Below, piece by piece: positions 688 through 21,718 of a stretch of DNA of 64,000 bases. The position numbers and the translations under genes are program-made. Numbering within the stretch: position 1 is the first letter of the stretch; each line of letters opens with the position of its first letter. The notes under the pieces were generated by a model, which was given only the letters and a program-made list of their open reading frames with translations, searched no databases and was not told where the DNA came from. Source of the stretch: Oerskovia jenensis (lineage in GTDB: Bacteria; Actinomycetota; Actinomycetes; Actinomycetales; Cellulomonadaceae); NCBI RefSeq assembly GCF_016907235.1, contig NZ_JAFBBO010000001.1:1612001-1676000 (forward strand), written 5' to 3'.

Positions 688-849
688 CGGGGCTGGCCGG
701 ATCGAGGGACCGGGCCCCGGGCACGGACGCTGCCCGAGGCCGCTTCCTCTCGCCTGCGCAGGACCCGCGGGTGACGATGGTCGGAGGGGTGCCACCGTAC
801 GGGCAGGGGCGGAGCGGTACCCGCAGGCGGGCAGCACCAGGGGGCAGTG

Positions 850-1449: not shown

Positions 1450-1482
1450 GGCAGCCCGCCCGGCAGCGCATCGGGACGCCCG

Positions 1483-2406: not shown

Positions 2407-3860
2407 GGGTCCTCCTGGTCGCCGAGCATGCGGTTGTCGTTCGTCGAGCATGCGGTGGTCGTCGTCGCGGGGTCGATGCCGGACGCCAACCGCATGCTCG
2501 GCAGCGAAGGTGTGGGGTCGAACGTGAAGTACGTGGGCGAGAGCGTGAAGCCCAGGCCGGGGACCTCGGGCGGCAGCGCCGTGCCGTCCGAGAACGTCGG
2601 CCCGCCCTCGACGAGCAGCGGGGCCGGGTCGTAGGGGTTGCCCTGCGGCGACCGCTCGAACGTCTCGACCCCGATCCCCGCGGCGCCGCCCAGGTGCACG
2701 CTGACCTCGGGGTACACGTGGCTCGACGTCACGAGCCCCGCGTCCTGCCAGGACCGGACCAGGGGGTCGGCCGCGGTGAGGCCACCGATCCCGACCACGT
2801 CCACGCGCGCCACGTCGAGCGCGCCGAGCGCAGCGAGCCGCGCGAACACCTCGGGGTCCGTGACCTCGTCGCCGATCGCGAGCGCCAGCCCCGTGACCTC
2901 GCGGATGCGCGCGGCGCCGGCGGCGTCCTCGGGCAGCACGGGGTCCTCGAGCCAGGCGAGCGCGGGCGCTCCGGCCCCTGCGGGACCGCCGATCCCCCAC
3001 GCGTCGAGGTCCGCGAGCGCCTCGTCCGCGTCGCGCCAGCCGAAGCCCACGTCCACGACGACGCCGGTGCGACCGGCCTCGGTCTCGCGGCCCGTCACCC
3101 CGGGCAGCTCGGCGCGCAGGATCGCGAGCAGGTCGCGCATGAGGTGGCGGTCGGGCGAGCGCGAGATCTTGAGCAGCGGCCAGCCCTCGCGGGCACGGTC
3201 GAGCACCTCGTCGGCGACGGCACGGGCCGTGCGACCGGGGGTCGGGTAGGCCGCGACGAGGATCGCGGGCCGCGGCGCCGGGACGACGTGCCCGGCCGCG
3301 TCCCCGCTCGGCTCCTGACCGGGGCGGGCCGACGACGGGACCTGAGCGGCGCCGTCGGGCAGCGCAGACTCCCCGCGCGGACCGGGAGCCGACGGCAGGA
3401 CGCGCGCGGCAGCGTCGGGCAGCGACCGCTCCAGGAGGCGCCACACCGGGAGCCCCGCGACCTTGCCCGCGACGTCCCACAGCGCGACGTCGACCAGACC
3501 GATCGCCCGGCGCACCAGGCCCACGCGCCCCACGATCGCCGAGCCGCGCAGCGCGGCGTCCCACGCCGCCCGCACCCCTGCGGCAGGGTCGTCGACCGCG
3601 AGGTCGCGGCCCACGACGTGCGGCGCGACGAGGCGCTCGACGATCTCCGCCATGGGCGCCTCACGCGTCAGGGCGTAGGAGACTCCCGTGACCTCGGTGC
3701 CGTCGGGCAGCACCGCACGCACCTGGACGCCCACGTACTCGCGGCGCGTGACCGTCATGGCCCCGAGCTGCAGGGGCTGCGGCAGGGCCACGACGGTCGT
3801 CGACGTGCGGACGTCGGTGATGCGCGCGAGCCCGCCCCGGCTCATGGTCCGGCTCGTCAT
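2403..3860 (-). CDS. Enolase-superfamily (mandelate racemase/muconate lactonizing) protein
   Basis: A 485-residue protein with the enolase-superfamily capping domain (1-140) and barrel. Likely metal ligands are Asp270 (VVVDVGFGW), Glu305 (WLEDP) and Glu332 (AIGDE). The SSHVYPEVSVHL segment with His381 resembles the general base of sugar-acid dehydratases. The expected KxK catalytic lysines are reduced to KISRS at 231-235. Two oddities stand out. Residues about 148-197 are a Pro/Ala/Gly insertion with two related units (LPDAAARVLPSAP and LPDGAAQVPSSAR). Residues 452-485 are a tail encoded by a family B palindromic repeat. It overlaps its neighbours by ATGA at both ends. Sugar-acid dehydration is the likely chemistry. 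Confidence 0.82.
   Translation of the reverse strand: MTSRTMSRGGLARITDVRTSTTVVALPQPLQLGAMTVTRREYVGVQVRAVLPDGTEVTGVSYALTREAPMAEIVERLVAPHVVGRDLAVDDPAAGVRAAWDAALRGSAIVGRVGLVRRAIGLVDVALWDVAGKVAGLPVWRLLERSLPDAAARVLPSAPGPRGESALPDGAAQVPSSARPGQEPSGDAAGHVVPAPRPAILVAAYPTPGRTARAVADEVLDRAREGWPLLKISRSPDRHLMRDLLAILRAELPGVTGRETEAGRTGVVVDVGFGWRDADEALADLDAWGIGGPAGAGAPALAWLEDPVLPEDAAGAARIREVTGLALAIGDEVTDPEVFARLAALGALDVARVDVVGIGGLTAADPLVRSWQDAGLVTSSHVYPEVSVHLGGAAGIGVETFERSPQGNPYDPAPLLVEGGPTFSDGTALPPEVPGLGFTLSPTYFTFDPTPSLPSMRLASGIDPATTTTACSTNDNRMLGDQEDP
2421..2502. repeat. Family B palindromic repeat, copy 1 (inside a CDS end)
   Basis: Perfect 16-base inverted arms GCCGAGCATGCGGTTG (2421-2436) and CAACCGCATGCTCGGC (2487-2502), with an extra direct copy CGAGCATGCGGTGG at 2444-2457. 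The same box-box-inverted-box layout recurs at 8153-8230 and 63485-63572. Here it lies within the 3' end of the enolase-superfamily gene and encodes most of its last 33 residues. Confidence 0.85.
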
Positions 3861-4675
3861 TCCGGCTTCTTCGCGAGCGGGACGCCGTAGTCGATGATGA
3901 ACCCACCGTCGACGTAGAGGGTCTGGCCGATCACGTACCGCGACTCGTCGGACACGAGCCAGCTCACGGCGTTCGCGATCTCCGAGGCGTCGGCGAGGCG
4001 GCCCGCGGGGATGCGCGCGAGGATCGTCTCCTCCTTGAGCGTCCCGGCCGCGACGCCCTGACGGAAGACGCCCGTGTCGATGTACCCGGGCGCGACCGCG
4101 TTGACCCGTACCCCGCGCGCGGCCCACTCGGCCCCCGCGGTCGAGGTCAGGCCGATCACGGCCGCCTTGGTCGTCGAGTACGGGGCCCGGCCCGCGGAGC
4201 CGCGCGCCGAGACCGACGAGATGTTGACGATCGCGCCGCAGCCCGCGGCGAGCATGTGCCGGCCCGCGGCCTGGAGGCAGGTGAAGACGCCGTGCAGGTT
4301 GACGTCGACCACGGCCTTCCACTCGTCCCAGGTCAGGTCCTCGATGCCGCGGTGGCGCTGGATCCCGGCGTTGTTGACCAGGACGTCGATGCTGCCGGTC
4401 GCGGCGGCGACCGCGTCGAACGCCGCCCCCACGGCCGCGTGGTCCGTGACGTCGAGGGGCATCCAGACCAGGCCCGGCTCGGCGCGCAGGGCCGCGAGGT
4501 CGAGCGCGGGCAGGTCGTGCTGGACGACGTCGGCGCACACCACGCGGTGGCCGTCGGCCGCGAGCCGCTCAGCGATCTGGCGGCCGATGCCCGCCGCGCC
4601 GCCCGTGACGATCGCGGTGCGGAGCGGGGCGCCGGCCGGGGCGCCGGACGTGGTCGGGGTGGTCGTGGTGCTCAC
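3857..4675 (-). CDS. SDR family oxidoreductase (second gene of the leftward operon)
   Basis: A 272-residue classical SDR. TGGAAGIG at 24-31 binds the nucleotide, Asp75 (PLDVTD) is in place, NNAG is at 101-104, and the active site is Ser153/154, Tyr166 and Lys170 (YSTTK). The C-terminus GQTLYVDGGFIIDYG is typical of sugar and polyol dehydrogenases. The GTG start follows GGAGG with five bases between, and forms a GTGA overlap with the stop of the ceramidase-like gene; its own stop forms ATGA with the enolase-superfamily gene. All four genes of this operon are therefore translationally coupled. NAD-dependent oxidation of a hydroxyl on a sugar-derived substrate is inferred. Confidence 0.9.
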   Translation of the reverse strand: MSTTTTPTTSGAPAGAPLRTAIVTGGAAGIGRQIAERLAADGHRVVCADVVQHDLPALDLAALRAEPGLVWMPLDVTDHAAVGAAFDAVAAATGSIDVLVNNAGIQRHRGIEDLTWDEWKAVVDVNLHGVFTCLQAAGRHMLAAGCGAIVNISSVSARGSAGRAPYSTTKAAVIGLTSTAGAEWAARGVRVNAVAPGYIDTGVFRQGVAAGTLKEETILARIPAGRLADASEIANAVSWLVSDESRYVIGQTLYVDGGFIIDYGVPLAKKPE

Positions 4676-6423
4676 TGGTCCTCCGTGGAAGTCTGCGCTG
4701 GTGCGGGCGTCGTCGCCGCCAGGGTGTCGATGAGGTGGTTCGCGTGCTGCTCGAGCCGCGCGAGCGAACCGGGCGCGAGCGGCGACTGCCACGCCTGGTA
4801 GGCGCCGCGCACGTACGCCTGGTCGGTCGGCAGGTAGACGAAGCCCGGGCCGTTGGTCAGGTTCGCGACCACGACCGGACGGTCGCCCGCGTGCTCGCGG
4901 ACCGTGCGCTGGAAGCGCGAGTACGCCTCGCCCGGGTGCGCGACGAGGAACCCGTCCCCGATCTGCCACACCCAGGTGGGGTGCTCGACGGTCGGGCCGG
5001 TCACGTAGCCGTCGCGCAGGTTGCGCGCGCGGCGCAGCCGCTCGTCGCGGCTGCGCGGATCGATGTCGGCCCACTCGGCCTCCATCTGCGCGAGGCTCGG
5101 CAGGTCCCGCAGCTCCAGCACGACGACGTCACTCACCGCGCGCAGGACGCGCGAGCCCTCGGCGGGGCGCGGCTCCCACAGTCCCAGCGGCGCGCCGGAC
5201 TGCACGACGTGCGTGAGCTCGAGGGCCGTGCCGGGGGGCGGCAGCTCGGCGAGCGCCGCGAGGACCGCGTGCCCGAGCGAGGTGCCGTGCCGGTCGGCGA
5301 CCGCGACGTCCCCCGTGTACTGCTCGCGCGGGGCCAGCTCGCCCGAGGCGCCCTGGAAGAACGCGACGGGTGCCCCGGTCGACGCCTCGACGAGGTCGCG
5401 CATCGCGCCCACGTAGTCCGGGGAGACCAGGGTGTTCTGCCACGCGAGCGTCGTGGGGTGGCACGCGTAGTTGACGATCGTCGCGAGGGGCGTCGTGGTC
5501 GGCAGGGGACCGCTGGCGGCCGCGCAGGCGGGGCAGCGGCTCGCGTCGGCGGTCGACGGCGGGTGGTCGTGCCCGGTCGGTGCCGGGTGATCGTGCCCGG
5601 TGTGTGGCTCGACCCGGCTGAGTCGGCCGATCACGACCGTGTCGTCGGTGGCGGCTCGCGGGACCGACGGGTTGAACCCGATCACGGGGAGCCCGAAGTC
5701 CGCGGTGGCGCCGGACACGGCGGACGTCGTGGCGCCGGACACGGCGGACGTCGTGGCGCCGGACGCACCAGGTGTCGTGTCGACGGGCTCGCCGTGCGAC
5801 CCGCCTGCGCCGAGGATCAGCTCGCGGTCCGCCGCGAGCGAGCAGCGTCCCGTCGTCCACTCGAGCGTGGCGGGGGCGAGCGAGGCCACGGCCTCGCGGC
5901 CCGCGTCGACGGCCTGCGCCGCGAGGTGCTCGAGGTAGGCGGGGACGAGCTCGCCACCTTCGAGGTCGGCGTCGTGGCTGCACAGCACCGGGCCGGCGTG
6001 GGTGTGGGACAACGAGACGAGCAGCCGCTCGGGCGCCAGGTCGAGGCCCGCGAGGACCGCGTCCCGGACGCCGCGCTCGTCGTCGACGCGGCGCCACCAC
6101 GTGGCGTCCACGGTGATCATGACGAGCGGTTCGGCCCGGGGAGCGGCGGGGCGCTCGGGGCGAGCGGCGCCGTCGGGCGGGCCGACCTGCGCGGGGTGCG
6201 CGGCGCCGTCGGGCGTGCTGCGCGACGGCGAGGTGCCCTCCGTCTCCTGCGCGAGGGCGATCGCGGTGAGGGTCATCGCGCGGTGCGTGCCCCGGGAGGC
6301 GTTCCAGTCGGCGGGGCCCCAGTTGCGGGCGCGGATACCCACGGGCGGTGTGACGTCGCGGCGGGCTACGCCTGCCAGTCCGCGGAAACCAGGCACCTTC
6401 ACCTGGTCGTGCAGGGACACCAT
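4672..6423 (-). CDS. Neutral/alkaline ceramidase-like N-terminal domain hydrolase
   Basis: A 583-residue protein with the signature pieces of the neutral ceramidase N-terminal domain: AGVARRDVTPPVG near the start, SLSHTHAGP at 137-145 (probable zinc histidines), NYACHPTTLAW at 318-328 and FFQGASGELAPRE beyond. It has no signal peptide and lacks the rest of true ceramidases. In sugar loci such proteins are often uncharacterised, so a cytoplasmic hydrolase of a lactone or ester is an inference. Three inserts are unusual: a PDGAA-rich stretch (61-98), an exact tandem SGATTSAV repeat (about 221-240) and a histidine/cysteine-rich stretch with two GHDHP units and CPAC (275-300). The ribosome site AGGAGG is strong. 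It is the first gene of the leftward operon. Confidence 0.75.
   Translation of the reverse strand: MVSLHDQVKVPGFRGLAGVARRDVTPPVGIRARNWGPADWNASRGTHRAMTLTAIALAQETEGTSPSRSTPDGAAHPAQVGPPDGAARPERPAAPRAEPLVMITVDATWWRRVDDERGVRDAVLAGLDLAPERLLVSLSHTHAGPVLCSHDADLEGGELVPAYLEHLAAQAVDAGREAVASLAPATLEWTTGRCSLAADRELILGAGGSHGEPVDTTPGASGATTSAVSGATTSAVSGATADFGLPVIGFNPSVPRAATDDTVVIGRLSRVEPHTGHDHPAPTGHDHPPSTADASRCPACAAASGPLPTTTPLATIVNYACHPTTLAWQNTLVSPDYVGAMRDLVEASTGAPVAFFQGASGELAPREQYTGDVAVADRHGTSLGHAVLAALAELPPPGTALELTHVVQSGAPLGLWEPRPAEGSRVLRAVSDVVVLELRDLPSLAQMEAEWADIDPRSRDERLRRARNLRDGYVTGPTVEHPTWVWQIGDGFLVAHPGEAYSRFQRTVREHAGDRPVVVANLTNGPGFVYLPTDQAYVRGAYQAWQSPLAPGSLARLEQHANHLIDTLAATTPAPAQTSTEDQ
5705..5764. repeat. 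24-base tandem repeat, 2.5 units, within the ceramidase-like gene
   Basis: Units at 5705-5728 and 5729-5752 are identical, followed by a half unit from 5753. In the protein they give SGATTSAV twice and a partial third. Exact identity suggests recent slippage, and the length is a multiple of three so the frame is kept. Confidence 0.9.
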
Positions 6424-6457
6424 GGATCCTCCTCGAGCCTGTGCGTCAACCCTCGAA

Positions 6458-6467
6458 TGCTATAGCA
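6458..6467. promoter_or_regulatory. TGCTATAGCA operator, site 1
   Basis: A perfect 10-base palindrome 35 bases upstream of the ceramidase-like gene and about 175 bases upstream of the divergent GntR gene. It is the core of the TTGCTATAGCAA motif found at three other places in this region. Its shape, a short palindrome without a spacer, suits an FCD-type GntR regulator. A TATCCT -10 for the GntR gene itself is at 6592-6597. Confidence 0.7.
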
Positions 6468-6642
6468 TGTAGTGAGGGGGCAAGCCGTCCGGTGGCCCTT
6501 CGCCTCGATGGTGGCACAACGGTGCGCCCCGCGCAGACCTCGCCCCGACCACGCACGGCGGGCGAGCAGCCGGGCCCGGTTCGCCGACCGCTATCCTTCG
6601 GGGCACCTCCCGGATCGGACCGCAGAACACTACGGAGAACCC

Positions 6643-7347
6643 ATGGCGCTCAAGAGCGTGCCCGACCTGAACGTCGCCGACCGCGTGACCGTCGAGCTGC
6701 GAGAGGCCATCTTCAGCGGCGACCTCGCGCCCGGGTCGCGACTGGTCGAGCGCAAGCTCGCCGAACGCCTCGGCACGAGCCACATCCCCGTGCGCGAGGC
6801 CCTCACCCGCCTCACCGAGGAAGGGCTCGTCGAACGCCTCCCCCACCGGGGGGCCCGCGTCGCCGCGCTCACGAGCCGCGACCTCGAGGAGATCTCGAGC
6901 CTGCGCACGCTCCTGGAGCAGTTCGTCGTCGTGCGCGTGCAGGCCGAGTGGGACGCCAAGACCGAGGCCCGCCTGCGCAAGACCGTGCAGCAGATGGTCG
7001 ACGCGGCCGAGCGCGGCAGCTCGGCCCGCGTGTTCGAGCTCGACCGACGCTTCCACGAGCAGCTCTGGGAGCTCGCCGACCACCGGATGCTCATGACCAT
7101 CACGTCCCAGCTCCGTTCCCGGATCACGGGCTTCCTGCGCGCCGCGAACGTGGCGCTCGACCCCGAGGCCCGCGTCGCGCACGCCGAGACGCACAACCTC
7201 ATCATCGACGCGATCGCGAGCGGCGACCCCGAGCGGGCGCGGACCGTCATGGCCGAGCACATCGGCGAGGCCGCGGCACGACTCGAGAGCCACACCGAGG
7301 ACGGCGACGTCGCCGAGGAGCCCACGGTGGAGGCCGGGCGCGCCTGA
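6643..7347 (+). CDS. GntR family, FCD (FadR-like) transcriptional regulator
   Basis: A 234-residue regulator. The N-terminal winged helix-turn-helix reads DRVTVELREAIFSGDLAPGSRLVERKLAERLG and PVREALTRLTEEGLV. An all-helical FCD ligand domain follows from residue 80, with the usual metal-site residues in ELDRRFHEQLW and HAETHNLIIDAI. ATG at 6643 was chosen because GGAG lies seven bases upstream; longer frames run through non-coding-like sequence. It lies between the leftward hydrolase/SDR operon and the rightward genes, and is the obvious candidate to bind the four TTGCTATAGCAA-type sites. FCD regulators usually respond to sugar acids or other carboxylates, which fits the neighbouring enzymes. 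The effector is unknown. Confidence 0.92.
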   Translation: MALKSVPDLNVADRVTVELREAIFSGDLAPGSRLVERKLAERLGTSHIPVREALTRLTEEGLVERLPHRGARVAALTSRDLEEISSLRTLLEQFVVVRVQAEWDAKTEARLRKTVQQMVDAAERGSSARVFELDRRFHEQLWELADHRMLMTITSQLRSRITGFLRAANVALDPEARVAHAETHNLIIDAIASGDPERARTVMAEHIGEAAARLESHTEDGDVAEEPTVEAGRA

Positions 7348-7447
7348 CCGGCGCGGTGGCGGGGCGTCGGTGGCGCGAGCGTCGTCGAGCGTGCAGTCCG
7401 GGTCGTCACGAGACGATCCCGACAGCCCGAACGCCCACGCTCGGCGA

Positions 7448-8158
7448 TCATCGGGCCAGGCGCGCCTCGCGGGACAGGTCGAGGAGCGCGTCGAGCACCT
7501 CGACCGTCGAGCCGCGCACGACGTCGGGCGCCCACTCCTCGGTCCAGGCCCGGCCGTGCGCGACCCACCCGGTCCGCAGGCCCGCGTCCCGGCCCCCGCC
7601 GACGTCCGCGGCGGGATGGTCGCCGACCATCCACGCGACCCCGGCCCCTGGGGCTCCGGGGACGCCCGGGACACCCGCCACCGCGAGCGCCGTCTCGAAG
7701 ATCCGCCGGTCGGGCTTCGCGAAGCCCGCCTCCTGCGAGATCACGACCCCCGGCACGAGGTCCGCGAGGCCGGTCCGGTCGAGCTTGGCCCGCTGCTGGT
7801 CGACCGTCCCGTTCGTCACGACGACGACGGGGATCCCCGCCGAGCGCAGCGCGTCGAGACGCGCGGGCACGCCCGGGTACGGCGCGACCCAGGCAAGATG
7901 CTCGAACAGCAGACGCTCGACCAGGTGCGGGACGTCGTCGGGCAGGTGGAACCGCGCGCGCATCCGCTCGGCGAGCACGGCCCGGGGCGCGTAGCCGTCG
8001 CGGTCGGCCTCGACGAGCCACGCGGCGGCGTCGGAGCCGAGCCCGCGGTCGCTCGCGAACGCCGAGGCCCAGGCCGCGAAGGCCCCGGCCCGGTCGACGA
8101 GGGTGTTGTCGAGGTCGACGAGCACCACGCCGGGGACGGTGCGGCGATGGTCGACCAT
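7448..8158 (-). CDS. HAD superfamily hydrolase
   Basis: A 236-residue haloacid-dehalogenase-type phosphatase. Motif I is LVDLDNTLVD (residues about 13-22), motif II VVVTNGT, motif III lysine in GFAKPD, and motif IV GDHPAAD. A helical cap lies between motifs I and II, as in the phosphoglycolate phosphatase/YjjG group. A short Gly/Pro-rich stretch (GVPGVPGAPGAG) sits before motif IV. The start codon lies within the outer box of a family B repeat. It is transcribed against the GntR gene. Small-phosphate hydrolysis is likely; the substrate is not predictable. Confidence 0.88.
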   Translation of the reverse strand: MVDHRRTVPGVVLVDLDNTLVDRAGAFAAWASAFASDRGLGSDAAAWLVEADRDGYAPRAVLAERMRARFHLPDDVPHLVERLLFEHLAWVAPYPGVPARLDALRSAGIPVVVVTNGTVDQQRAKLDRTGLADLVPGVVISQEAGFAKPDRRIFETALAVAGVPGVPGAPGAGVAWMVGDHPAADVGGGRDAGLRTGWVAHGRAWTEEWAPDVVRGSTVEVLDALLDLSREARLAR

Positions 8159-8230
8159 GCGGAAGGCGCTCCTCGAACATGCGGTGGGCGTCGGAATCGG
8201 GGCGATTCACGACCGTAACCACATGTTCGG
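8153..8230. repeat. Family B palindromic repeat, copy 2
   Basis: A degenerate copy: box GACCATGCGG (8153-8162, covering the HAD start codon), box CGAACATGCGGT (8174-8185) and inverted box ACCACATGTTCG (8218-8229). Order and spacing match the copies at 2421 and 63485. Confidence 0.65.
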
Positions 8231-8342
8231 CAGCGAGGGGGGACGGTCGAGGGATGGACACTTCGTGCGAGGTCCAGCCCGACCTCGCACGTGCTTCGTT
8301 GCCGTGCATCGTTCACTCGAGAACGTGGATGCGAGACTATTC

Positions 8343-8354
8343 TTGCTATAGCAA
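8343..8354. promoter_or_regulatory. TTGCTATAGCAA operator, site 2
   Basis: A perfect 12-base palindrome 78 bases before the GNAT gene. A -10-like TATTCT (8338-8343) abuts it, but no convincing -35 is spaced correctly. The rest of 8231-8432 shows no gene. Confidence 0.75.
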
Positions 8355-8432
8355 ACCGTCAAGGCGAAGCCGCCGACCGCCCCGCGCAAAACCCCCACCT
8401 GCACCGACGCGCCCCGCTCACCGAGGAGCCCC

Positions 8433-9503
8433 ATGGAATTCCGCACCGCGACGCCCGCCGACGTCCCGTCGCTGTACGCGCTGTGGGCCGCCGCGTTCGA
8501 CGCGCCCCTCATGGTCCCCGTCCACGAGACCGACGACGGCCGGCTCGACCGCACGGTCGTCGCGGTCCTCCCTGGCCTGACCCCCGCCGAGGACCGCGTC
8601 GTCGCCTCGGTCTGCTGGACCCCCCGCACTCTCGTCGGGCTCCCCGGCCCCGACGGGGCGACCACCACGCTCACCGTGGGCGGCGTCGCGAACGTCGCCT
8701 CGGCGCCGGACCTGCGCGGGCGCGGCCTGGTCCGCCTCGCGCTCGCCCAGGCCGTCGAGCAGATGCACGCCGCGGGCATGGACGCCTCGCTGCTGTTCAC
8801 GGGCACCCCGGGCGTCTACCGACCGAGCGGCTGGGAGGTCTTCGAGGTCCCGGTCACGCACGGCCTCCTCCTGCCCGACGGCGCCGCTCGCCCCGCGCGG
8901 CCCGGCTCGACCGGGGTCGTCGCTCACCACGAGCGCCCGCCCCGTGCGAACTCCCCCGTCCCCACGACGTTCCCCGCCTGGAGCACCGACCTCCCGTGGC
9001 AGGGCCTCGCGGCCCTGCACGACGCGTTCCACGCCGCCCCTCTGACCACGCGCCGCACGGCCGAGCACTGGGAGCGCCGGATCCCGCTCTGGTACTCCGC
9101 GGCTGAGCTCCTCACGGCGCGGCGCCCCGACGGGTCGATCGTGGGCTACCTGGTCGTGGAGGTCAAGGGTGAGGTGCTGCGCGTGCGGGAGCTCGCCGTC
9201 GGGCCCGGAGACGCGGCGGCACCCGAGCGGCGCGAGGCGCTCGACGCTCTCGACGTGCTCGCGCTCGCCGCCCGTTCGCTGGCCCGCGAGTCCGGGGTGA
9301 CCCGCGTCGAGGTGCGCCTGCCGCGCGTCCCGGCCGCGGCGGCGCTCACCGACGCGCTGCTGACGCCGGGCGGTCGCGAGACGACGTCCGACGCGACCGG
9401 GATGCTGCGCCCGGTCCGGCGCTCGACGGTCGAGATCGACGCCCTGCGCGCCGCGACGAGCGGCCCCGCGGCGGGCTTCCACTGGCCCGGCGACTACCTG
9501 TGA
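8433..9503 (+). CDS. GNAT family N-acetyltransferase, Eis-like two-domain type
   Basis: A 356-residue protein whose first 130 residues form a GNAT domain: MEFRTATPADVPSLYALW, then VGGVANVASAPDLRGRGLVRLAL, the acetyl-CoA pyrophosphate loop. A second GNAT-like half and an SCP2-like C-terminal region follow, as in Eis-type acetyltransferases, where a free C-terminal carboxylate serves catalysis; here the end is WPGDYL. The start ATG follows GAGGAG with four bases between. Residues about 149-170 carry a Pro/Ala-rich stretch starting LPDGAARPARPG that looks inserted. It lies downstream of a TTGCTATAGCAA site, so it may belong to the same regulon, although its link to sugar catabolism is not obvious. 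Confidence 0.8.
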   Translation: MEFRTATPADVPSLYALWAAAFDAPLMVPVHETDDGRLDRTVVAVLPGLTPAEDRVVASVCWTPRTLVGLPGPDGATTTLTVGGVANVASAPDLRGRGLVRLALAQAVEQMHAAGMDASLLFTGTPGVYRPSGWEVFEVPVTHGLLLPDGAARPARPGSTGVVAHHERPPRANSPVPTTFPAWSTDLPWQGLAALHDAFHAAPLTTRRTAEHWERRIPLWYSAAELLTARRPDGSIVGYLVVEVKGEVLRVRELAVGPGDAAAPERREALDALDVLALAARSLARESGVTRVEVRLPRVPAAAALTDALLTPGGRETTSDATGMLRPVRRSTVEIDALRAATSGPAAGFHWPGDYL

Positions 9504-9543
9504 GATGTTCCCGCGCCACGCCCTCAAGCCGCACGCGCCGTCG

Positions 9544-9602
9544 TCGAGATGCGGCCAACGGGGGTCTGCGGGCGCCGCGAACCCCCGTTGGCCGCATCTC
9601 GA
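9544..9602. terminator. 22-bp perfect hairpin after the GNAT gene
   Basis: Arms 9544-9565 and 9581-9602 are perfectly complementary, starting TCGAGATGCGGCC, with a 15-base loop. No T-run follows. It is probably a terminator or palindromic repeat. The 376 bases between 9504 and 9879 hold only this hairpin, the promoter at 9644 and a roughly 200-base leader. Confidence 0.65.
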
Positions 9603-9643
9603 TGCTCTCGCCTCGGCGGACCTGGCGAGTCGTCACCAACCTC

Positions 9644-9672
9644 TTGACATTGCTATAGCACCGGCCTAATCT
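9644..9672 (+). promoter_or_regulatory. Near-consensus promoter with TGCTATAGCA operator in its spacer, site 3
   Basis: The -35 TTGACA (9644-9649) and -10 TAATCT (9667-9672) are separated by exactly 17 bases. The palindrome TGCTATAGCA (9651-9660) lies within the spacer. A protein bound here would block RNA polymerase, so the arrangement predicts repression. The promoter drives the two beta-helix genes through a leader of about 200 bases. Confidence 0.85.
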
Positions 9673-9879
9673 CCGGGAAATGCCCGGTTCATCCGGACGC
9701 AACGAAGCGCATCCATCCTGCTGTCGCGGCCTGCCGCGCCCAGCCTGAACCGTTCCCTCGCACTCCCGTCCCCGGTCACCGCAGCCCCGGCCCGACGGAC
9801 TCCACCCGCACGCCCGTTGCCGCGCGTCGGCCACGCCTGAACGGACCCGTCTCATCGACCCGTCCGAAGGGTGACCCAC

Positions 9880-12144
9880 GTGAAGACCCCCCTGACTGCC
9901 CGCGAGAGCGCGGCAGCCCCCGACCTCTCCCCCGACCCCGCAGCCCCCGCCGACCCCTCGCGCCGCAGCCTGCTGCGCGTCGCGGGCATGGGCGCGCTGA
10001 CCGCGACCGCGTTCGCGCTGTCCACGGGCACGGCGCCCGCAGCCCTCGCCGCACCGCTGGGCCTGAGCAAGGACGAGCCCGACGACGAGGTCCTCGTCGC
10101 GTCGTCCGTCGCCCAGCTCGTGGGCTGGCGCGCGAAGAAGATCGACGACGGGACCGTCGTCCGGCTCCTGGGCCATGCGACCCCCGGCGACGGCGCCGCA
10201 CGCCTGGTCCGCTACGACGCCACGAGCGAGGCGGCCCCCAACGGCGGCACCGTGCTGGCCCCCCTCGGCGCGACCGGCCGCGGCCGGTGGCACACGCTCC
10301 ACACCGGCACGGCCGACTTCCGCTGGTTCGGGATCTTCGGCGCCGACGCCCCCACGGGCAGTGCCGACGACGCGCTCGATGCGCTCGTGAACGACCCGAC
10401 CGTGAGCCGCATCGAGGGGCACACCGACCTCAACTTCGTGCGCCGCCACACCTACGCGCGCTCGCACCTCGAGCTCGACTTCGGCGGCCGGACGATCACG
10501 ACCGAGGGCATCGAGCGCAACGCGCACGACAACCCGTTCGGCGCCGTTCTGTTCTTCCAGGGGACCGTGACCGACGTGGCCCAGCAGCGCACGCTCGCCG
10601 AGACCCTGCCCGACCAGCGCGACGTGTTCGAGGTCGCGGACTCGTCCGCGTTCGCGGTCGGCGACTGGTGGACCGTGCAGGTCGACCCCCGGCCGGGCGG
10701 CGGGCGCGACGAGCGCGAGCTCCAGCGGCTCGTGCAGGTCACCGAGGTCGTCGACGCGGCGCACGTGCGCGTCGACTACCGCAACGGCTGGGAGCTCGCC
10801 CCGGGCCGCGTGCTCGAGTGGCGCAAGGTCGTGCCCGTCGAGCAGGTGCACGTGCGGAACATGACGTTCGTCGGGGCCGGCCCCTACGACGGCCCCCTCA
10901 ACGGCGAGCTGCCCGACGACCGCGAGTACACCGGCTCGCACCCGGTCGCGTACGAGTTCGCGGTGCGCTGCGACGTGTCGGACGTGCACGGCTCCAGGAC
11001 GTGGTGGCCCGTCATCATGCGCCGCTGGAACACGTTCTTCGCGACCGAACGCTGCTCGGTCGCGAACCCGCCCACGGTCTTCTACGGCGGCGCGGGCTAC
11101 CTCACGCAGCAGATCTACTGCCTGTACGGACGCGTCGCGGACTGCCGCTCGCACAACGCCCGCCACCTCAACGACCTCACGGCCTCGGCGTACTGCCTCG
11201 TCGAGAACTGCCACGGCGACGGCGACGACCAGGGCGGCAACCCGTTCACGACGCACGGCCAGTACGAGCACGACCTCGTGTTCCAGGGCAACAGCGGCCT
11301 CATGGACATCGCCAACTCGGGGGCGCAGTGGGGCATCAGCGCCAAGCGCATCACGGTCAAGGGACACGTGGCCTCGTGGTTCACGGTGAGCACCAAGATC
11401 ACCGACCTGACGCTGGAGGACGTGCACGTCGTCGCGCGCTCGACGTTCGACCAGCAGGGCAGCCTCACGGTCAACGCCGACGGCGTGCAGATGCGCGGGT
11501 GCACCGCGTCGTTCTTCGCGGTCGCGCAGCGCTCGAACCTGTCGAAGCGGCCCAACGTCATCGAGGACTGCCACTTCTCGCTGCCGGTCGCCAGCGTGCT
11601 GCACCAGACGCCCGTCGCCAACCCGGTCCACTTCGTCCGGACCGGATTCACCGGGTTCGACGGCACGATCCTGCGCGGCGCGGGGCCGGTCACGTTCACC
11701 GACTGCACGTTCGTCGGCTCGACCGACGAGGCCGCTCCCGCGGCCCCCGCGCTCGTCGGGTCGACCGACGTCACGGTCAACGGCGGGACCCTCACGGGCG
11801 CGGGCATCCAGCTCAGCGGGGTCCGCGACCAGCGGCTCACGGTCCGCGGGGCGGAGCTCTCCGGCACGACGACGGCGGGCGCCCTGGTCTCGCGGGCACC
11901 TGGCCCCGGGACGGTCCAGGTGGACCTGCGGGGCGCGACGCTCGCCGCGAGCGGGACCACCGCCCACGTCGCCCTCGCGGGCACCGACACGCTGACCGCG
12001 GTCGGCACGCGCCTGCGCGGCGGTCGCTACGACCTGGCACCGACCACGCGCGTGCTCCAGTCCGGCTGCGTCGAGCAGGGCGTCGACCGCACCGGCTTCC
12101 CCGAGGGCGACCACGTCCTCGTCACCGACTCGCTCGCGCTGTGA
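9880..12144 (+). CDS. Tat-exported right-handed beta-helix protein, paralogue 1
   Basis: A 754-residue secreted protein. A twin-arginine signal (PSRRSLLRVAGMGALTATAF) ends in an Ala-rich cleavage region near residue 60. After the conserved start KDEPDDEVLVAS comes an N-terminal domain, then a glycine/asparagine-rich repeat region typical of parallel beta-helix polysaccharide lyases and glycosidases, with CHGDGDDQGG and NSGLMDIANSGAQWG turns. GTG at 9880 was chosen because GAAGGG lies eight bases upstream; GTG at 9871 has the same signal too close. Its tandem neighbour is a clear paralogue. The pairing with a sugar importer and catabolic enzymes suggests action on an extracellular glycan. No catalytic triad could be assigned. 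Confidence 0.78.
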   Translation: MKTPLTARESAAAPDLSPDPAAPADPSRRSLLRVAGMGALTATAFALSTGTAPAALAAPLGLSKDEPDDEVLVASSVAQLVGWRAKKIDDGTVVRLLGHATPGDGAARLVRYDATSEAAPNGGTVLAPLGATGRGRWHTLHTGTADFRWFGIFGADAPTGSADDALDALVNDPTVSRIEGHTDLNFVRRHTYARSHLELDFGGRTITTEGIERNAHDNPFGAVLFFQGTVTDVAQQRTLAETLPDQRDVFEVADSSAFAVGDWWTVQVDPRPGGGRDERELQRLVQVTEVVDAAHVRVDYRNGWELAPGRVLEWRKVVPVEQVHVRNMTFVGAGPYDGPLNGELPDDREYTGSHPVAYEFAVRCDVSDVHGSRTWWPVIMRRWNTFFATERCSVANPPTVFYGGAGYLTQQIYCLYGRVADCRSHNARHLNDLTASAYCLVENCHGDGDDQGGNPFTTHGQYEHDLVFQGNSGLMDIANSGAQWGISAKRITVKGHVASWFTVSTKITDLTLEDVHVVARSTFDQQGSLTVNADGVQMRGCTASFFAVAQRSNLSKRPNVIEDCHFSLPVASVLHQTPVANPVHFVRTGFTGFDGTILRGAGPVTFTDCTFVGSTDEAAPAAPALVGSTDVTVNGGTLTGAGIQLSGVRDQRLTVRGAELSGTTTAGALVSRAPGPGTVQVDLRGATLAASGTTAHVALAGTDTLTAVGTRLRGGRYDLAPTTRVLQSGCVEQGVDRTGFPEGDHVLVTDSLAL

Positions 12145-12200
12145 ACCGCACGAGCTCCCCCTGCCCACCCGGAAGAACCCCTGATGAAAGGCCCCTGCAG

Positions 12201-14456
12201 ATGACGAACCTCCTCACGTCCGGACAGACCCCCGGCGAACCGGCGACGACGCCGACCTCGCCCCGCCAGGCCCCCACGGTCGAGGCCCCCTCGCGCCGCA
12301 ACCTGCTGCGCGTCGCCGGGATCGGCGGCCTCGTGGCCGCTGGCGCCCTGATGGGCACGCACCCGGCCGCAGCCGCCACGCCGACCGCCGCGGCGCCGTC
12401 GGGCGTGCTGCCCCTGAAGAAGGACGAGCCCGACGACGAGGTCCTGGTCGCGGCGTCCGTCGCCCAGCTCGTGGGCTGGCGCGCGAAGAAGATCGACGAC
12501 GGGACGGTCGTCCAGCTCCTCGGCCACGCCACGCCGGGCGACGGCGCCGCACGCCTCGTCCGCTACGACGCGAAGAGCGAGGCGGCGGCCAACGGCGGCA
12601 CCGTGCTGGCCCCGAAGGACGCTCCGGGCAAGGGGCGGTGGCACACGCTCCACACCGGCACGGCCGACTTCCGCTGGTTCGGGCTGTTCGGGAAGGACAC
12701 CCCGGCCGACGACGCGCTCGACGCACTCGTGAACGACCCGACCGTGAGCCGCATCGAGGCGCACTCCGACCTCAACTTCGTGCGCCGCCACCGGTTCACG
12801 CGCTCGCACCTCGAGCTCGACTTCGGCGGGCACACCATGACGACCGAGGGCATCGAGAAGGCCGGGCAGGACGACCCGTTCGCAGCCGTCCTGTTCTTCC
12901 GCGGCACCGTCACCGACGACGTCCGCACCCACAAGCTCACGGCCGTCATGCCCGAGCTGCGCGACGACTTCGAGGTCGCCGACTCCTCGCAGTACGCCGT
13001 GGGCGAGTGGTACGCGCTCGAGGTCAACGCCCTCGCGGGCAAGTGGGAGCGCGAGCTGCAGCTCCAGGTCCAGGTCACGCAGATCGTCGACGCGACGCAC
13101 GTGCGCGTCAACTACCTCAACGGCTGGGAGCTCGCCGCAGGGCGCACGCTCACGTGGACCAAGGTCGAGCCCGTGCAGCAGGTGCACGTGCGCAACCTGT
13201 CGTTCGTGGGCGTCGCGGGCGGCGACCAGTACACGGGGTCTCACCCGCTCGCGTTCGAGTACGCGGTGAGCTGCGACGTCGAGAACGTGCACGGGGTCGC
13301 GACGTTCTGGCCTCTGGTCATGCGCCGGTGGTCGACGTTCTTCACGACGTCGCGCTGCTCGCTCGCCAACCCGGCCTCGATCACGTGGGGCGGCGCGGGC
13401 TACCTCACGCAGCAGATCTACTGCCTGTACGGGCACGTGTCCGACTGCCACACCTCGAACTGCCGCCACCTCAACGACTGGACGGCCTCGGCGTACGGTC
13501 TCGTGGAGAACTGCCACGGCGACGGCGACGACCAGGGCCCGTTCGTCACGCACGGCCAGTACGAGCACGACCTGACGTACGTCGGGAACTCCGGGCTCAT
13601 GACGTTCGCCAACTCGGGTGCGGCGTGGGGCTCGTCGGCCAAGCGCATCACGGTCAGCAAGCACGTGTGCTCGTGGTTCGTGGCACGCGTCAAGGTCACC
13701 GACCTGACGCTCGAGGACGTCCAGGTCATCCGCAAGGAGGGCCTCGCGGGCTCGGGCATGCTGTGGGTCAACGCCGACGGCGTCCAGCTGCGCGGCTGCC
13801 AGGCCGACGACACCCTGATCGTGTCGCAGGCGTCGAGCCGCTCGAAGCGCCCCAACGTGATCGAGGGCTCGCGCTTCAACGTCCTGCCGGGGACGCCGAT
13901 CACGCAGGCCACCGTGACCAACCCGATCCACCTGGTCCGCACGACCTTGAACGGGCTGGAGGGTGCGTCGTTCGCGGGCTCGGGCCAGGTGGTCCTGGAC
14001 CAGTGCACGCTCGAGGCGGCCGAGGGCAAGGGCACCGTGACGGCGTCGGGGGACCTGACGATCCGTGGCGGCGTGGTGCGCAACGTCGCGGTCGTCGCGG
14101 CGGGCACCGCCGAGCAGACCGTCCGGGTCGGCGACGGGGCGCGGCTCGAGGGATCACCCGCGGGTGGCACGTTCCTGAGCCGGGCGAAGGCGGACAAGCC
14201 CGTCACCTGGAACCTGGACGGTGCACGATCGGTGGCCGCGTCGGGTGACACTGGTCACGTGAAGCTAGACACAGGTATCAATCGCTGGTCGGCCGTGGGC
14301 TCCACCTTCACGGGTGGTCGCCTCCAGCTCGCCGACGGCGCGTTCGGCGCAGGCTCCTACCTCCTGCACTCGGGCAACGTGGAGAGCGGCGTGCAGCGCG
14401 TCGCGATCCCGGCCGACGGCCCGACGGTCTCCACGACGGGCACGCTCATCCTCTGA
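12201..14456 (+). CDS. Tat-exported right-handed beta-helix protein, paralogue 2
   Basis: A 751-residue paralogue of the preceding gene with its own twin-arginine signal (SRRNLLRVAGIGGLVAAGAL) after an N-terminal extension. The segment after the signal (KDEPDDEVLVAASVAQLVGW and the next 60 residues) is nearly identical to paralogue 1. The central helix is clearly similar, while the C-terminal 200 residues have diverged strongly. Key shared turns are CHGDGDDQG, HGQYEHDL and NSGLM. Paralogue 2 lacks some insertions of paralogue 1. ATG at 12201 follows AAAGG with nine bases between. The 56-base gap to the first gene suggests a joint transcript ending at the 14479 hairpin. Cell-surface or secreted glycan processing is inferred. 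Confidence 0.78.
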   Translation: MTNLLTSGQTPGEPATTPTSPRQAPTVEAPSRRNLLRVAGIGGLVAAGALMGTHPAAAATPTAAAPSGVLPLKKDEPDDEVLVAASVAQLVGWRAKKIDDGTVVQLLGHATPGDGAARLVRYDAKSEAAANGGTVLAPKDAPGKGRWHTLHTGTADFRWFGLFGKDTPADDALDALVNDPTVSRIEAHSDLNFVRRHRFTRSHLELDFGGHTMTTEGIEKAGQDDPFAAVLFFRGTVTDDVRTHKLTAVMPELRDDFEVADSSQYAVGEWYALEVNALAGKWERELQLQVQVTQIVDATHVRVNYLNGWELAAGRTLTWTKVEPVQQVHVRNLSFVGVAGGDQYTGSHPLAFEYAVSCDVENVHGVATFWPLVMRRWSTFFTTSRCSLANPASITWGGAGYLTQQIYCLYGHVSDCHTSNCRHLNDWTASAYGLVENCHGDGDDQGPFVTHGQYEHDLTYVGNSGLMTFANSGAAWGSSAKRITVSKHVCSWFVARVKVTDLTLEDVQVIRKEGLAGSGMLWVNADGVQLRGCQADDTLIVSQASSRSKRPNVIEGSRFNVLPGTPITQATVTNPIHLVRTTLNGLEGASFAGSGQVVLDQCTLEAAEGKGTVTASGDLTIRGGVVRNVAVVAAGTAEQTVRVGDGARLEGSPAGGTFLSRAKADKPVTWNLDGARSVAASGDTGHVKLDTGINRWSAVGSTFTGGRLQLADGAFGAGSYLLHSGNVESGVQRVAIPADGPTVSTTGTLIL

Positions 14457-14478
14457 CGCGGGCCAGTCCGCCTCGACC

Positions 14479-14523
14479 ACGGGGTTGAGGTCGTCAACCG
14501 TGATGTGACGACCTCAACCCCGT
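14479..14523 (+). terminator. 17-bp hairpin terminator after the beta-helix pair
   Basis: Perfect arms ACGGGGTTGAGGTCGTC (14479-14495) and its complement (14507-14523), with an 11-base loop. It ends the beta-helix transcript. No T-run follows, as is common in high-GC actinobacteria. Confidence 0.75.
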
Positions 14524-14602
14524 TCTCGGCACCGACCGAAGATCACGACTCGGTCGCAAGTTGACCTGACGGGCTGTCAGGGCGCAGGATCATCTGGCAT
14601 AG

Positions 14603-14614
14603 TTGCTATAGCAA
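14603..14614. promoter_or_regulatory. TTGCTATAGCAA operator, site 4
   Basis: A perfect 12-base palindrome about 105 bases before the oxidoreductase/ABC operon. A tentative promoter CTGTCA (14574-14579), 18 bases, CATAGT (14598-14603) would place the operator across the end of the -10. A further half-site TAGCAA follows at 14615. Confidence 0.8.
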
Positions 14615-14719
14615 ATAGCAAATAAAGCCGTACTCGCCCGGCTCTCGGCCCCCACCGAGCGTTCGACCAGCACCACCAGCCCCACCCCCGCAGCCCCCGC
14701 AACGACGCAAGGACCGCTC

Positions 14720-16012
14720 GTGACCCGCAATGACGCACCCGTGACCGTCGCCCTCGTGGGCGCCGGCAACCGTGGTCAGACCTACGCACGCTGGATCGCC
14801 GCGCACCCCGACCGTGCGCGCCTGGTCGCGGTCGCAGACCCGCGCCCGTTCCAGCGGTCCCTCGTGAGCGACGGCGCGGCCGCTGCGACCCCCGACGCCG
14901 CCCCCGTCGCACAGTTCGCGGACTGGGAGGACCTGGTCGCAGCAGGCACCCCGGCCCCTCTCGCGGACATGGTCATCGTCGCGACGCAGGACCGCGAGCA
15001 CCGCGACCCGGTCGTGGCTCTCGCCGCGCAGGGCTACGCGATCCTCGTCGAGAAGCCGCTCGCCCCGAGCGCCGAGGAGTGCCGCGACGTCGTCGACGCG
15101 GTCGAGGCCGCGGGCGTCCTGTTCGGCGTGTGCCACGTCATGCGCTACATGCCGTACACGGACCTCATGAAGTCGGTCGTGGACTCGGGCGTCCTGGGCG
15201 AGATCGTCAACGTGCAGCACCTCGAGCCGGTCGGCTGGTGGCACGACGCGCACTCGTACGTGCGCGGCCCGTGGCGCTCGGAGAAGACGTCGAGCCCCAT
15301 GCTGCTCGCCAAGTCGAGCCACGACCTGGACTGGATCCGGTACGTCACGGGCAAGCGGATCACGACCGTCGCGAGCTTCGGCTCGCTCAAGCACTTCCGG
15401 CCCGAGGAGCGTCCCGAGGGCGCTGCGGACCGCTGCCTGGACTGCCCGCTCGAACCGACGTGCCCCTACTCCGCGCCGCGCCTGTACCTGGGCACGCTGC
15501 GCGAGAAGGGCGCGATCTGGCCCGTCACGGTCGTCACGGACGGCACCGACGAGGCGTCGGTGATCGAGGCGCTGCGCACGGGCGACTACGGCCGGTGCGT
15601 CTACGCCTCGGACAACGACGTCGTGGACCACCAGGTCGTCGCGATGGAGCTCGAGGGCGGCGGCGCGGCGACGTTCACCATGACGGCCTTCTCGGAGCAG
15701 GACCACCGCAAGACGCAGATCTTCGGGACCCACGGCTGCCTCGACGGCGACGGCGAGAAGATCCGGGTCACGGACTTCCGGGACGGCTCGGTCACGGTCC
15801 ACGACTCGGGTCACCACGGCGCGACCAACGCGGCCGACGACCACGGCGGCGGCGACTCGGGCGTCATGGACGCGTTCGTCCGTGCGGTCGCGACGGGGGA
15901 CCCGAGCCACGTCCGGTCGGGTGCCGTCGAGTCCCTCCAGAGCCACCTCGCCGTGTTCGCGGCCGAGGAGTCGCGGCACTCGCGCACCGTCGTCGAGGTC
16001 CCGGCCCGTTAG
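14720..16012 (+). CDS. Gfo/Idh/MocA family oxidoreductase
   Basis: A 430-residue NAD(P)-dependent sugar dehydrogenase. The Rossmann motif is VALVGAGNRGQTYARW (about 9-24) and the family EKPLA motif with the catalytic lysine is near 115. The C-terminal sheet domain contains DHQVVAMELEGGGAATFTM. A cysteine group CLDCPLEPTCPYSA (near 240) could bind metal and is seen in one branch of the family. The GTG start follows AAGGA with six bases between. It is the first gene of an operon encoding a sugar importer and further enzymes, and lies behind a TTGCTATAGCAA site. Oxidation of the imported sugar or sugar acid is the likely role. Confidence 0.88.
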   Translation: MTRNDAPVTVALVGAGNRGQTYARWIAAHPDRARLVAVADPRPFQRSLVSDGAAAATPDAAPVAQFADWEDLVAAGTPAPLADMVIVATQDREHRDPVVALAAQGYAILVEKPLAPSAEECRDVVDAVEAAGVLFGVCHVMRYMPYTDLMKSVVDSGVLGEIVNVQHLEPVGWWHDAHSYVRGPWRSEKTSSPMLLAKSSHDLDWIRYVTGKRITTVASFGSLKHFRPEERPEGAADRCLDCPLEPTCPYSAPRLYLGTLREKGAIWPVTVVTDGTDEASVIEALRTGDYGRCVYASDNDVVDHQVVAMELEGGGAATFTMTAFSEQDHRKTQIFGTHGCLDGDGEKIRVTDFRDGSVTVHDSGHHGATNAADDHGGGDSGVMDAFVRAVATGDPSHVRSGAVESLQSHLAVFAAEESRHSRTVVEVPAR

Positions 16013-16152: not shown

Positions 16153-17424
16153 ATGACCATGCCGAAGAAGCACGTGGTGACCGCTCTGGCAGCGATCACC
16201 GCCCTCGGCGCTCTCACGGCCTGCGGTGGCGGCGACGCGGCCGGCGGCTCGACCCCCGTCCCCTCGGACGGCGCGGCCTCGGGGTCCGTCACCATGTGGA
16301 CCTACCCCGTCATCGCTGACGAGGCGGCCCACAAGGCGTTCTGGGACACGCAGATCGCCGAGTTCACCAAGGAGAACCCGGACGTCGACGTCAAGGTCGA
16401 GATCTACCCGTGGGCGGGTCGTGACGAGACGCTCGCGACGGGCATCGCGGGCGGCAAGGGCCCCGACGTCGTCTACCTCATCCCGGACCAGCTCCCGAAG
16501 TACGCGAAGTCCCTCGCGGCGGTCGACAACTACATCACCGACAACACGGGCGACCTGCGCGAGAACGCCGCGAAGTCGGTGAGCATCGACGGGGCCATGA
16601 TGGGCGCGCCGCTGATCATGAACTCGAAGCCGCTCGTGTGCAACGCCGCGGCGTTCGACGCGATCGGCGAGTCGGGCAACTACCCGGCCACGTGGGACGA
16701 CCTGATGGCCCTGGCCCCGAAGTTCAAGGACGCCGGGTACGACGTCACGAACTACTGGGGCGCGGTCGACGCGACGCTCAACGAGTCCTTCTACCCGCTG
16801 CTGTGGCAGGCGGGCGGCTCGGTGTTCTCGGAGGACGGCACGGAGGTCGCGTTCGACTCGCCCGAGGGCGTCGAGGCGCTCCAGTTCGTCACGGACCTGG
16901 CCGAGGGCGGCTTCGTCGAGAAGGACCTGCTGACGACCATCCCGGCGTTCGAGCAGACCCGCACCGCGCAGGGCAAGATCGCCTGCACGTGGCAGCAGGG
17001 CCCCGGCGACGTCGCGAGCTTCTGGGGTGAAGAGAACACGGTCGTGCTCCCCTCCCTCAAGCAGGCCGAGTCGATCGGCTACGGCACGGTCGGTTCGCTG
17101 GCCCTCATGAAGAAGGCCGAGAACCTGGACGCGGCGGGCAAGTGGCTCGCGTTCGCGACGCGGCCCGAGGCCTCGGCCGAGTACGCGAAGGCTGCGGGCT
17201 GGTTCACGCCGTACACCTCGCAGACGGGCCTGTACGGCGACGACGCGACCATGGCCGCGCTCGAGGCCACGCTCGACGCCACGACCTCCGGCGACCTCAA
17301 CGAGAAGTCGCGCGAGGTCATGGGCATCCTCGCCCCGGAGATCCAGGCCGCGCTCATCGGCCAGAAGACCCCTGAGCAGGCCATGAAGGACGCGGCCGCC
17401 GCCGCGAACCCGCTCCTCGGCTGA
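16153..17424 (+). CDS. ABC transporter sugar-binding lipoprotein
   Basis: A 423-residue extracellular solute-binding protein of the carbohydrate (family 1) type. A short signal peptide ends in the lipobox LTAC (cysteine near residue 25), so the mature protein is lipid-anchored outside the membrane. The body shows VTMWTYPVIADEAAHKAFWD, KVEIYPWAGRDETLATGIAGGKGPDVVYL and the usual hinge segments (MGAPLIMNSKPLVCN, TWQQGPGDVASFWGE). AAAGGAG lies eight bases before the ATG. Two permease genes follow; no ATPase gene is present, as expected for actinobacterial CUT1 systems that share an MsiK-like ATPase. The ligand is probably the product released by the beta-helix proteins. Confidence 0.93.
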   Translation: MTMPKKHVVTALAAITALGALTACGGGDAAGGSTPVPSDGAASGSVTMWTYPVIADEAAHKAFWDTQIAEFTKENPDVDVKVEIYPWAGRDETLATGIAGGKGPDVVYLIPDQLPKYAKSLAAVDNYITDNTGDLRENAAKSVSIDGAMMGAPLIMNSKPLVCNAAAFDAIGESGNYPATWDDLMALAPKFKDAGYDVTNYWGAVDATLNESFYPLLWQAGGSVFSEDGTEVAFDSPEGVEALQFVTDLAEGGFVEKDLLTTIPAFEQTRTAQGKIACTWQQGPGDVASFWGEENTVVLPSLKQAESIGYGTVGSLALMKKAENLDAAGKWLAFATRPEASAEYAKAAGWFTPYTSQTGLYGDDATMAALEATLDATTSGDLNEKSREVMGILAPEIQAALIGQKTPEQAMKDAAAAANPLLG

Positions 17425-17438
17425 TCTCGCACCACACC

Positions 17439-17482
17439 CACCGGGCCGGGTGGCCGCCGCTGACGCGGCCCTCGGCCCGGTG
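17439..17482 (+). terminator. Intercistronic hairpin after the solute-binding gene
   Basis: Outer stem CACCGGGCCG (17439-17448) with CGGCCCGGTG (17473-17482), and an inner stem GGCCGC/GCGGCC. Such hairpins after binding-protein genes often keep binding-protein mRNA above permease mRNA. Confidence 0.6.
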
Positions 17483-17502
17483 AGGCGAAGGAGAAGAACC
17501 CC

Positions 17503-21711: not shown

Positions 21712-21718
21712 TCCTGCG

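Follow-up and report, generated by a model that had tools for sequence, protein, structure and literature searches.

In a 64,000-nucleotide stretch of the Oerskovia jenensis genome (the window; positions 1,612,001 to 1,676,000 of contig NZ_JAFBBO010000001.1), four copies of a short palindrome stood around a gene for an FCD-type GntR regulator. The locus raised the question of whether these copies were the operators of one regulon, which protein bound them and what the controlled genes did. The original prediction, made from the window alone, was a local four-site regulon of the GntR gene at 6643. We found that this regulon was real and larger than described. With high confidence we propose that the 6643 protein represses its own gene and seven further units through the core TGCTATAGCA, and that an organic acid releases it and so switches on a non-phosphorylative catabolic route. 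Computation shows where the sites lie, that they are conserved and that they occur together with the regulator; binding, repression, the inducer and the order of the pathway are what we infer.

The core TGCTATAGCA occurred at 6458, 8344, 9651 and 14604 of the window, and the full 12-mer TTGCTATAGCAA was exact at 8343-8354 and 14603-14614, so that the palindrome or its core was found without mismatch at all four predicted places (6458, 8343, 9651 and 14603). Shuffled sequences gave an expectation of 0.01 cores, and none of 100 shuffles reached four. It had also been claimed that the window held no further copy, and there was none, even with one mismatch allowed in the core (shuffle mean 0.01); likewise, the 12-mer with up to two mismatches had no additional copy in the window (shuffle mean 0.04). 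Operator 1 (6458..6467, core within ATGCTATAGCAT) lay between the ceramidase-like operon on the minus strand and gntR on the plus strand. Operator 2 (8343..8354) preceded a GNAT gene, operator 3 (9651..9660, core within TTGCTATAGCAC) a pair of presumed beta-helix genes and operator 4 (14603..14614) the Gfo/Idh-ABC operon; no strand was assigned to any of the four. Operator 4 was followed on the plus strand, 2 bp past its core, by a third half-site TAGCA (14616..14620), giving the extended operator TGCTATAGCAnnTAGCA. Each site was just upstream of its gene set as predicted, with core-to-start-codon distances of 34 bp for the ceramidase-like gene, 79 bp for GNAT, 106 bp for Gfo/Idh, 175 bp for GntR and 210 bp for the first beta-helix gene.

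The regulator (6643..7347, plus strand, 234 aa) combined an N-terminal GntR winged helix (PF00392, 67.4 bits against a cut-off of 27, helix domain from residue 13) with a C-terminal FCD domain (PF07729, 77.7 bits against 24.3), and its recognition helix read SHIPVREAL. The operon under operator 1, on the minus strand, began with a neutral-ceramidase-fold protein (4672..6423) and continued with the SDR dehydrogenase SDR2 (3857..4675), an enolase-superfamily (MR/MLE) protein that was a probable acid-sugar dehydratase (2403..3860; PF13378, PF02746) and, as its last gene, a second SDR dehydrogenase, SDR1 (1483..2406); both SDR proteins matched Pfam adh_short_C2. For the first of these proteins, the PDB fold matches at E<=0.001 were only neutral ceramidases (model pLDDT 58.8), and one of them, 2zws, had an E of 9.3e-12 and a TM of 0.45-0.48 on this low-confidence model. 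A ceramidase sequence family was not found for it, with no Pfam or NCBIfam match at 0.001 and no PDB sequence match at E<=1.

The remaining gene sets of the window were on the plus strand. Operator 2 stood before a GNAT acetyltransferase (8433..9503; PF13527). The pair behind operator 3 consisted of two paralogues that were likely beta-helix proteins. Paralogue 1 (9871..12144) had by eye a secretion-signal-like N-terminus; it belonged to no Pfam family, and its best PDB sequence match, at E 0.098, was not significant. Paralogue 2 (12201..14456) was predicted to end in a run of short strands, and the only fold that its model (pLDDT 55.8, C-terminal part confident) matched at E<=0.001 was, weakly, that of a phage depolymerase (E 7.3e-4, TM 0.17-0.20). 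Operator 4 preceded a Gfo/Idh/MocA oxidoreductase (14720..16012; PF01408), an ABC importer with a binding protein and two permeases (16153..19448; PF01547, PF00528 twice) and, at 19454..22744, an NAD epimerase-like protein, a protein without a Pfam family and a D-2-hydroxyacid dehydrogenase. The protein without a Pfam family (20557-21711) showed weak similarity to N-acetylneuraminate lyase (E 0.017). The 6643 gene had been called the single GntR gene, which was correct locally and incorrect for the window, where a second FCD-GntR gene was located at 57662-58348 on the minus strand (helix SRPSVREAL). No core with up to one mismatch was present within about 1.5 kb on either side of this second gene.

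Six exact cores were found in the whole 4.45 Mb genome (4,453,691 bases), two of them outside the window, at genome positions 1602814 and 2404359. The former belonged to the same catabolic cluster, 9.2 kb beyond the left edge of the window, and the latter was 33 bp upstream of sdaA, which encodes an L-serine ammonia-lyase (L-serine dehydratase; TIGR00720, 593.6 bits, cut-off 345.1). A genome scan for the 12-mer with two mismatches allowed added the imperfect site TTGCTATAGCGT at 1602877, paired with the 1602814 core, and two scattered sites. On one side of this pair there were genes for a D-2-hydroxyacid dehydrogenase (2HADH) and then a fumarylacetoacetate-hydrolase (FAH) protein, and on the other side a gene for a third SDR dehydrogenase (SDR3). 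Many copies unrelated to the locus were not found in the genome: five of the six cores were inside the cluster, and the sixth, before sdaA, was kept in relatives. The shuffles, the whole-genome counts and the counts in relatives ruled out that the four window sites arose by chance or as repeats. The four sites of the predicted regulon stood, and its closed set did not, because the genome added 1602814, 2404359 and the imperfect 1602877. The gap between SDR3 and SDR1 was about 9.8 kb in O. jenensis and about 0.5 to 4.1 kb in the other loci showing both halves of the cluster. By eye, this stretch of about 9.8 kb (L007:7664-17000 plus window 1-1482) contained genes for a two-component system and an ArsR-like regulator as well as an adenylation/reductase gene and an ECF sigma-like gene.

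We compared 28 loci with relatives of the 6643 regulator. A core with up to one mismatch was present upstream of gntR in 14 of them, those with a regulator of at least 55% identity over at least 220 residues; no such core was found in the locus DNA examined for the other 14 (12 at 29-40% identity and two short stretches at 56% and 66%). Counted by genome, the orthologue reached at least 55% identity in 18 cases, and all 18 genomes had the equivalent of operator 1 with up to one mismatch. Here each genome was counted once: by coordinates L009, L010, L011 and L019 appeared to be G002, G001, G003 and G004, L018 (G065) appeared to be G118, L021 and L056 were both in G067, and L022 and L055 were both in G068. 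The regulator of our genome was 97-99% identical to those of the named Oerskovia records.

The same gene sets followed the sites in Oerskovia, Cellulosimicrobium-group and Isoptericola loci. The core was exact in 12/12 orthologous loci at the GNAT gene and in 12/12 at the Gfo/ABC operon, while the beta-helix site was exact in six of 12 (five Oerskovia and Isoptericola); the beta-helix genes of the other six, from the Cellulosimicrobium group, had two imperfect sites 71 bp apart. Six Oerskovia genomes contributed to these rows to different extents (divergent 2HADH/SDR3 pair 3/6, GNAT 5/6, Gfo 5/6). The sdaA site was present in all six regulator-bearing Oerskovia genomes and in five of six Cellulosimicrobium-group genomes, where it read CGCTATAGCA towards sdaA. 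It was missing before sdaA of C. terreum and of both Leucobacter genomes, and Isoptericola and a metagenome-assembled genome (MAG) had no sdaA match at E<=1e-60. In the pairs compared, cores were identical at 9-10 of 10 positions, versus 4-25 of 30 in each 30-bp flank. Coordinate mapping assigned all 51 TGCTATAGCR places in 10 further orthologue-bearing genomes to a regulon operator, the sdaA site or a Leucobacter MFS site. The latter was a further operator in two Leucobacter genomes (L057:3467, L058:3526), located just before an MFS transporter gene on a contig other than that of the cluster. Two of the 52 non-Oerskovia relatives (G021 and G034) had one core each; we took these cores as chance occurrences, since their 4-kb surroundings matched no cluster gene.

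The next question was whether the operator belongs to the 6643 regulator. When 396 genomes of the order were searched by pattern, six contained the extended operator TGCTATAGCAnnTAGCA, and a regulator orthologue (E<=1e-45) was present in exactly the same six and in 0/390 others (Fisher 1.9e-13 ignoring kinship; only three of 109 genera). Two of these genomes, G254 and G296, were found via the DNA word alone, and both carried the regulator at 55-60% identity, together with genes for the ceramidase-like protein, SDR2, enolase, SDR1, SDR3, 2-hydroxyacid dehydrogenase and FAH. Among seven Oerskovia genomes, six had the regulator orthologue and exactly six cores each, and the seventh (G006) had no regulator and no core; its sdaA gene, 94% identical, had no site in the 160 bases before it. 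The ceramidase-like gene was also missing from G006 at E<=1e-30, so this genome showed a joint loss. Since regulator, enzymes and sites were gained and lost together, co-occurrence by itself does not identify the regulator as the binder, and the sites vanished with the enzymes rather than with the regulator alone. This would also fit another protein binding the palindrome, with gntR as merely one of its targets. We consider this very unlikely, because no other regulator gene recurred beside the operons in the loci that we read in an unsystematic look, and because the recognition helix of the 6643 protein was unique in its genome and constant in the site-bearing orthologues read.

Nine FCD proteins were encoded in the genome, and the 6643 protein alone carried SHIP, with His in the recognition helix; the others had SR (seven) or GR (one). 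SHIPVREAL was found in all 17 site-bearing orthologues read (genome G005 left out), and the 14 relatives without a site had SR (12), ST (1) or SF (1). On the DNA side, all 47 distinct site rows (operator B of the divergent pair and the second Cellulosimicrobium beta-helix site left out) had GC in the boxes. The operator departed in this from the GT...AC boxes typical of the FadR/FCD subfamily, having GC...GC instead. The helix residues were mapped to FadR contacts, and the His at this position may be the cause of the change from GT to GC. Taken together, the 6643 GntR/FCD protein is very probably the protein that binds the palindrome, and the assignment of the regulon to it is strong by comparison. 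The predicted regulon around this gene agreed with the comparison (6/6 versus 0/390 genomes, five of six cores in the cluster), and proved incomplete with respect to targets outside the window (the 2HADH/FAH operon, the divergent SDR gene and sdaA) and probably gntR itself.

The arrangement of half-sites differed between promoters. The third half-site TAGCA, 2 bp past the core, was present in 12/12 Gfo/ABC rows and 13/13 2HADH/SDR3 rows, but in just one row of the 15 for gntR, and the 37 remaining rows lacked it. In G254, which was outside the row count, the TGCTATAGCAnnTAGCA arrangement recurred in the stretch that separates a beta-helix gene from gntR. In a Propionibacteriales MAG (L020:2386-2409), the gntR operator was flanked by a half-site on both sides, with four half-sites in total.

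Promoters were guessed at two places. Around operator 3, a plus-strand promoter (9644..9672) was suggested by eye, where TTGACA (9644-9649) and TAATCT (9667-9672) enclosed a 17-nt spacer that held the operator; a sigma-70 consensus scan of 5500-15500 listed no promoter, with TAATCT below its threshold. At the divergent pair, operator B contained TAGCGT followed after 6-7 nt by the ATG of SDR3 in 13/13 rows, and operator A contained TAGCAT or TAGCGT followed after 6-8 nt by the ATG of 2HADH in 12 of 13 rows; the remaining row, L056, gave 3 nt because an earlier ATG was met there. If these elements are -10 elements, then both mRNAs of the divergent pair would be leaderless. We dropped the idea that operator B strays from the palindrome in order to build a -10 element, since TAGCAT (as in G254) would serve equally.

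At the divergent pair, the site overlapped what looked like a -10 element 6-8 nt before the start codons, and one could take the palindrome for a conserved element of promoters (-10-like TGCTATAGC) instead of an operator. Such a reading is extremely improbable, given that the site before the beta-helix gene was in the spacer, that the genome held only six copies and that the extended form was missing from 390 of 396 genomes. The spacer and the -10 element are usual places for the operators of repressors. The operator positions relative to the guessed promoters suggest repression. It is unlikely, although less so, that the same GntR protein acts at these sites as an activator or in a dual mode. 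Its mode could not be read with certainty from the sequence, and the third half-site on the 2HADH side was upstream of the guessed -10 element; against activation, the operator was in the spacer or on the -10 element wherever promoters were guessed (the beta-helix genes and the divergent pair).

We prefer repression, in which the 6643 protein, probably as a dimer, would bind TGCTATAGCA. Its targets would be gntR itself, the ceramidase-like/SDR/enolase/SDR operon, the GNAT gene, the beta-helix pair and the Gfo/Idh-ABC operon and, outside the window, the 2-hydroxyacid dehydrogenase-FAH operon, the divergent SDR gene and sdaA. Without substrate, the repressor would sit in the promoter spacer, on the -10 element or near the start point and block transcription. 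An organic-acid intermediate bound in the FCD domain would then take the repressor off and turn on uptake and the non-phosphorylative route, presumably dehydrogenation, dehydration, dehydrogenation and hydrolysis of a diketo acid by the FAH protein to pyruvate and a hydroxy acid.

The function of the regulon was likely sugar-acid catabolism via a diketo-hydrolase route, judging from protein families. The FAH protein (PF01557) matched L-2,4-diketo-3-deoxyrhamnonate hydrolase (8gsr) over residues 2-278, nearly its full length, with an E of 2.1e-51; another FAH-family enzyme, 1gtt, outscored 8gsr but over 69-277. This match, the three SDR proteins, the enolase-superfamily protein and an SMP-30 gene close by are consistent with a non-phosphorylating pathway of the route 3 type acting on deoxy-sugars or on a related sugar acid; the SMP-30 gene had no operator of its own. 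All eight NCBIfam models matched by the enolase-superfamily protein scored far under their cut-offs, and no single substrate could be assigned to the enolase and SDR proteins. As for the role of sdaA, the hydrolase product with three carbons, an acid, might be converted to hydroxypyruvate, then to serine and then to pyruvate. A broader and unlikely reading is that the SHIP helix defines an FCD specificity class for GCTATAGC instead of GT...AC, with plain and three-half-site operators, and that the regulon degrades a sugar-acid conjugate, perhaps with serine. In that case, the beta-helix proteins would release the conjugate, the ceramidase-fold protein would split it as an amidase, SdaA would take off the serine and the diketo-hydrolase route would take the sugar acid.

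Systems of this kind are well known, and the operator is atypical among them. PMC4494728 describes FadR-subfamily (FCD) GntR regulons by comparative genomics, with UxuR, ExuR, LldR and DgoR among those named. As in those regulons, we found a winged helix with an FCD domain, operators of palindromic form, one or two such sites at divergent operons and an extra half-site. PMC4494728 also describes extra boxes 7-12 nt from the operator centre, so the third half-site, with the middle of TAGCA 9.5 nt from the centre, was a known feature. The usual operator there has GT and AC boxes (common TKGT/ACMA), with NanR and BioR as named exceptions; the 6643 operator differed from it in having GC...GC. The original expectation that FCD regulators bind short palindromes of this kind was therefore only loosely right, valid for the palindrome and not for the GT...AC consensus. 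According to PMC8012715, E. coli NanR is also an FCD repressor with repeated half-sites within one operator. NanR uses three direct GGTATA repeats and has a 32-residue N-terminal extension, whereas the basic 6643 site was a palindrome, only some promoters had the third half-site, and the helix domain started at residue 13. At the protein-family level, the cluster resembled route 3 of L-fucose and L-rhamnose (FucF/FucG, LRA5/LRA6) as outlined in PMC11199699, which likewise combines dehydrogenases and a dehydratase with a diketo-acid hydrolase of the FAH family. Beyond that outline it added the neutral-ceramidase-fold protein, Gfo/Idh, GNAT, the beta-helix-like proteins and the serine dehydratase.

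Literature searches returned nothing, judged by title, on the core string TGCTATAGCA as a bacterial regulator site, nothing on GCTATAGC with GntR and unrelated matches only on GntR in Oerskovia or Cellulosimicrobium. The analysis named a regulator, its operator and its targets for a catabolic cluster common to Oerskovia, Cellulosimicrobium, Isoptericola, Leucobacter and relatives. One of these targets, the serine dehydratase gene, lies far away and would have escaped a search by gene neighbourhood alone. The GC operator core and the His for Arg in the recognition helix offer a testable case of a shift of DNA specificity in the FCD family. Finally, one locus (L014), titled Sphaerisporangium cinnabarinum ATCC 31213, had a gene order and identity like those of Cellulosimicrobium, and its label may be wrong.
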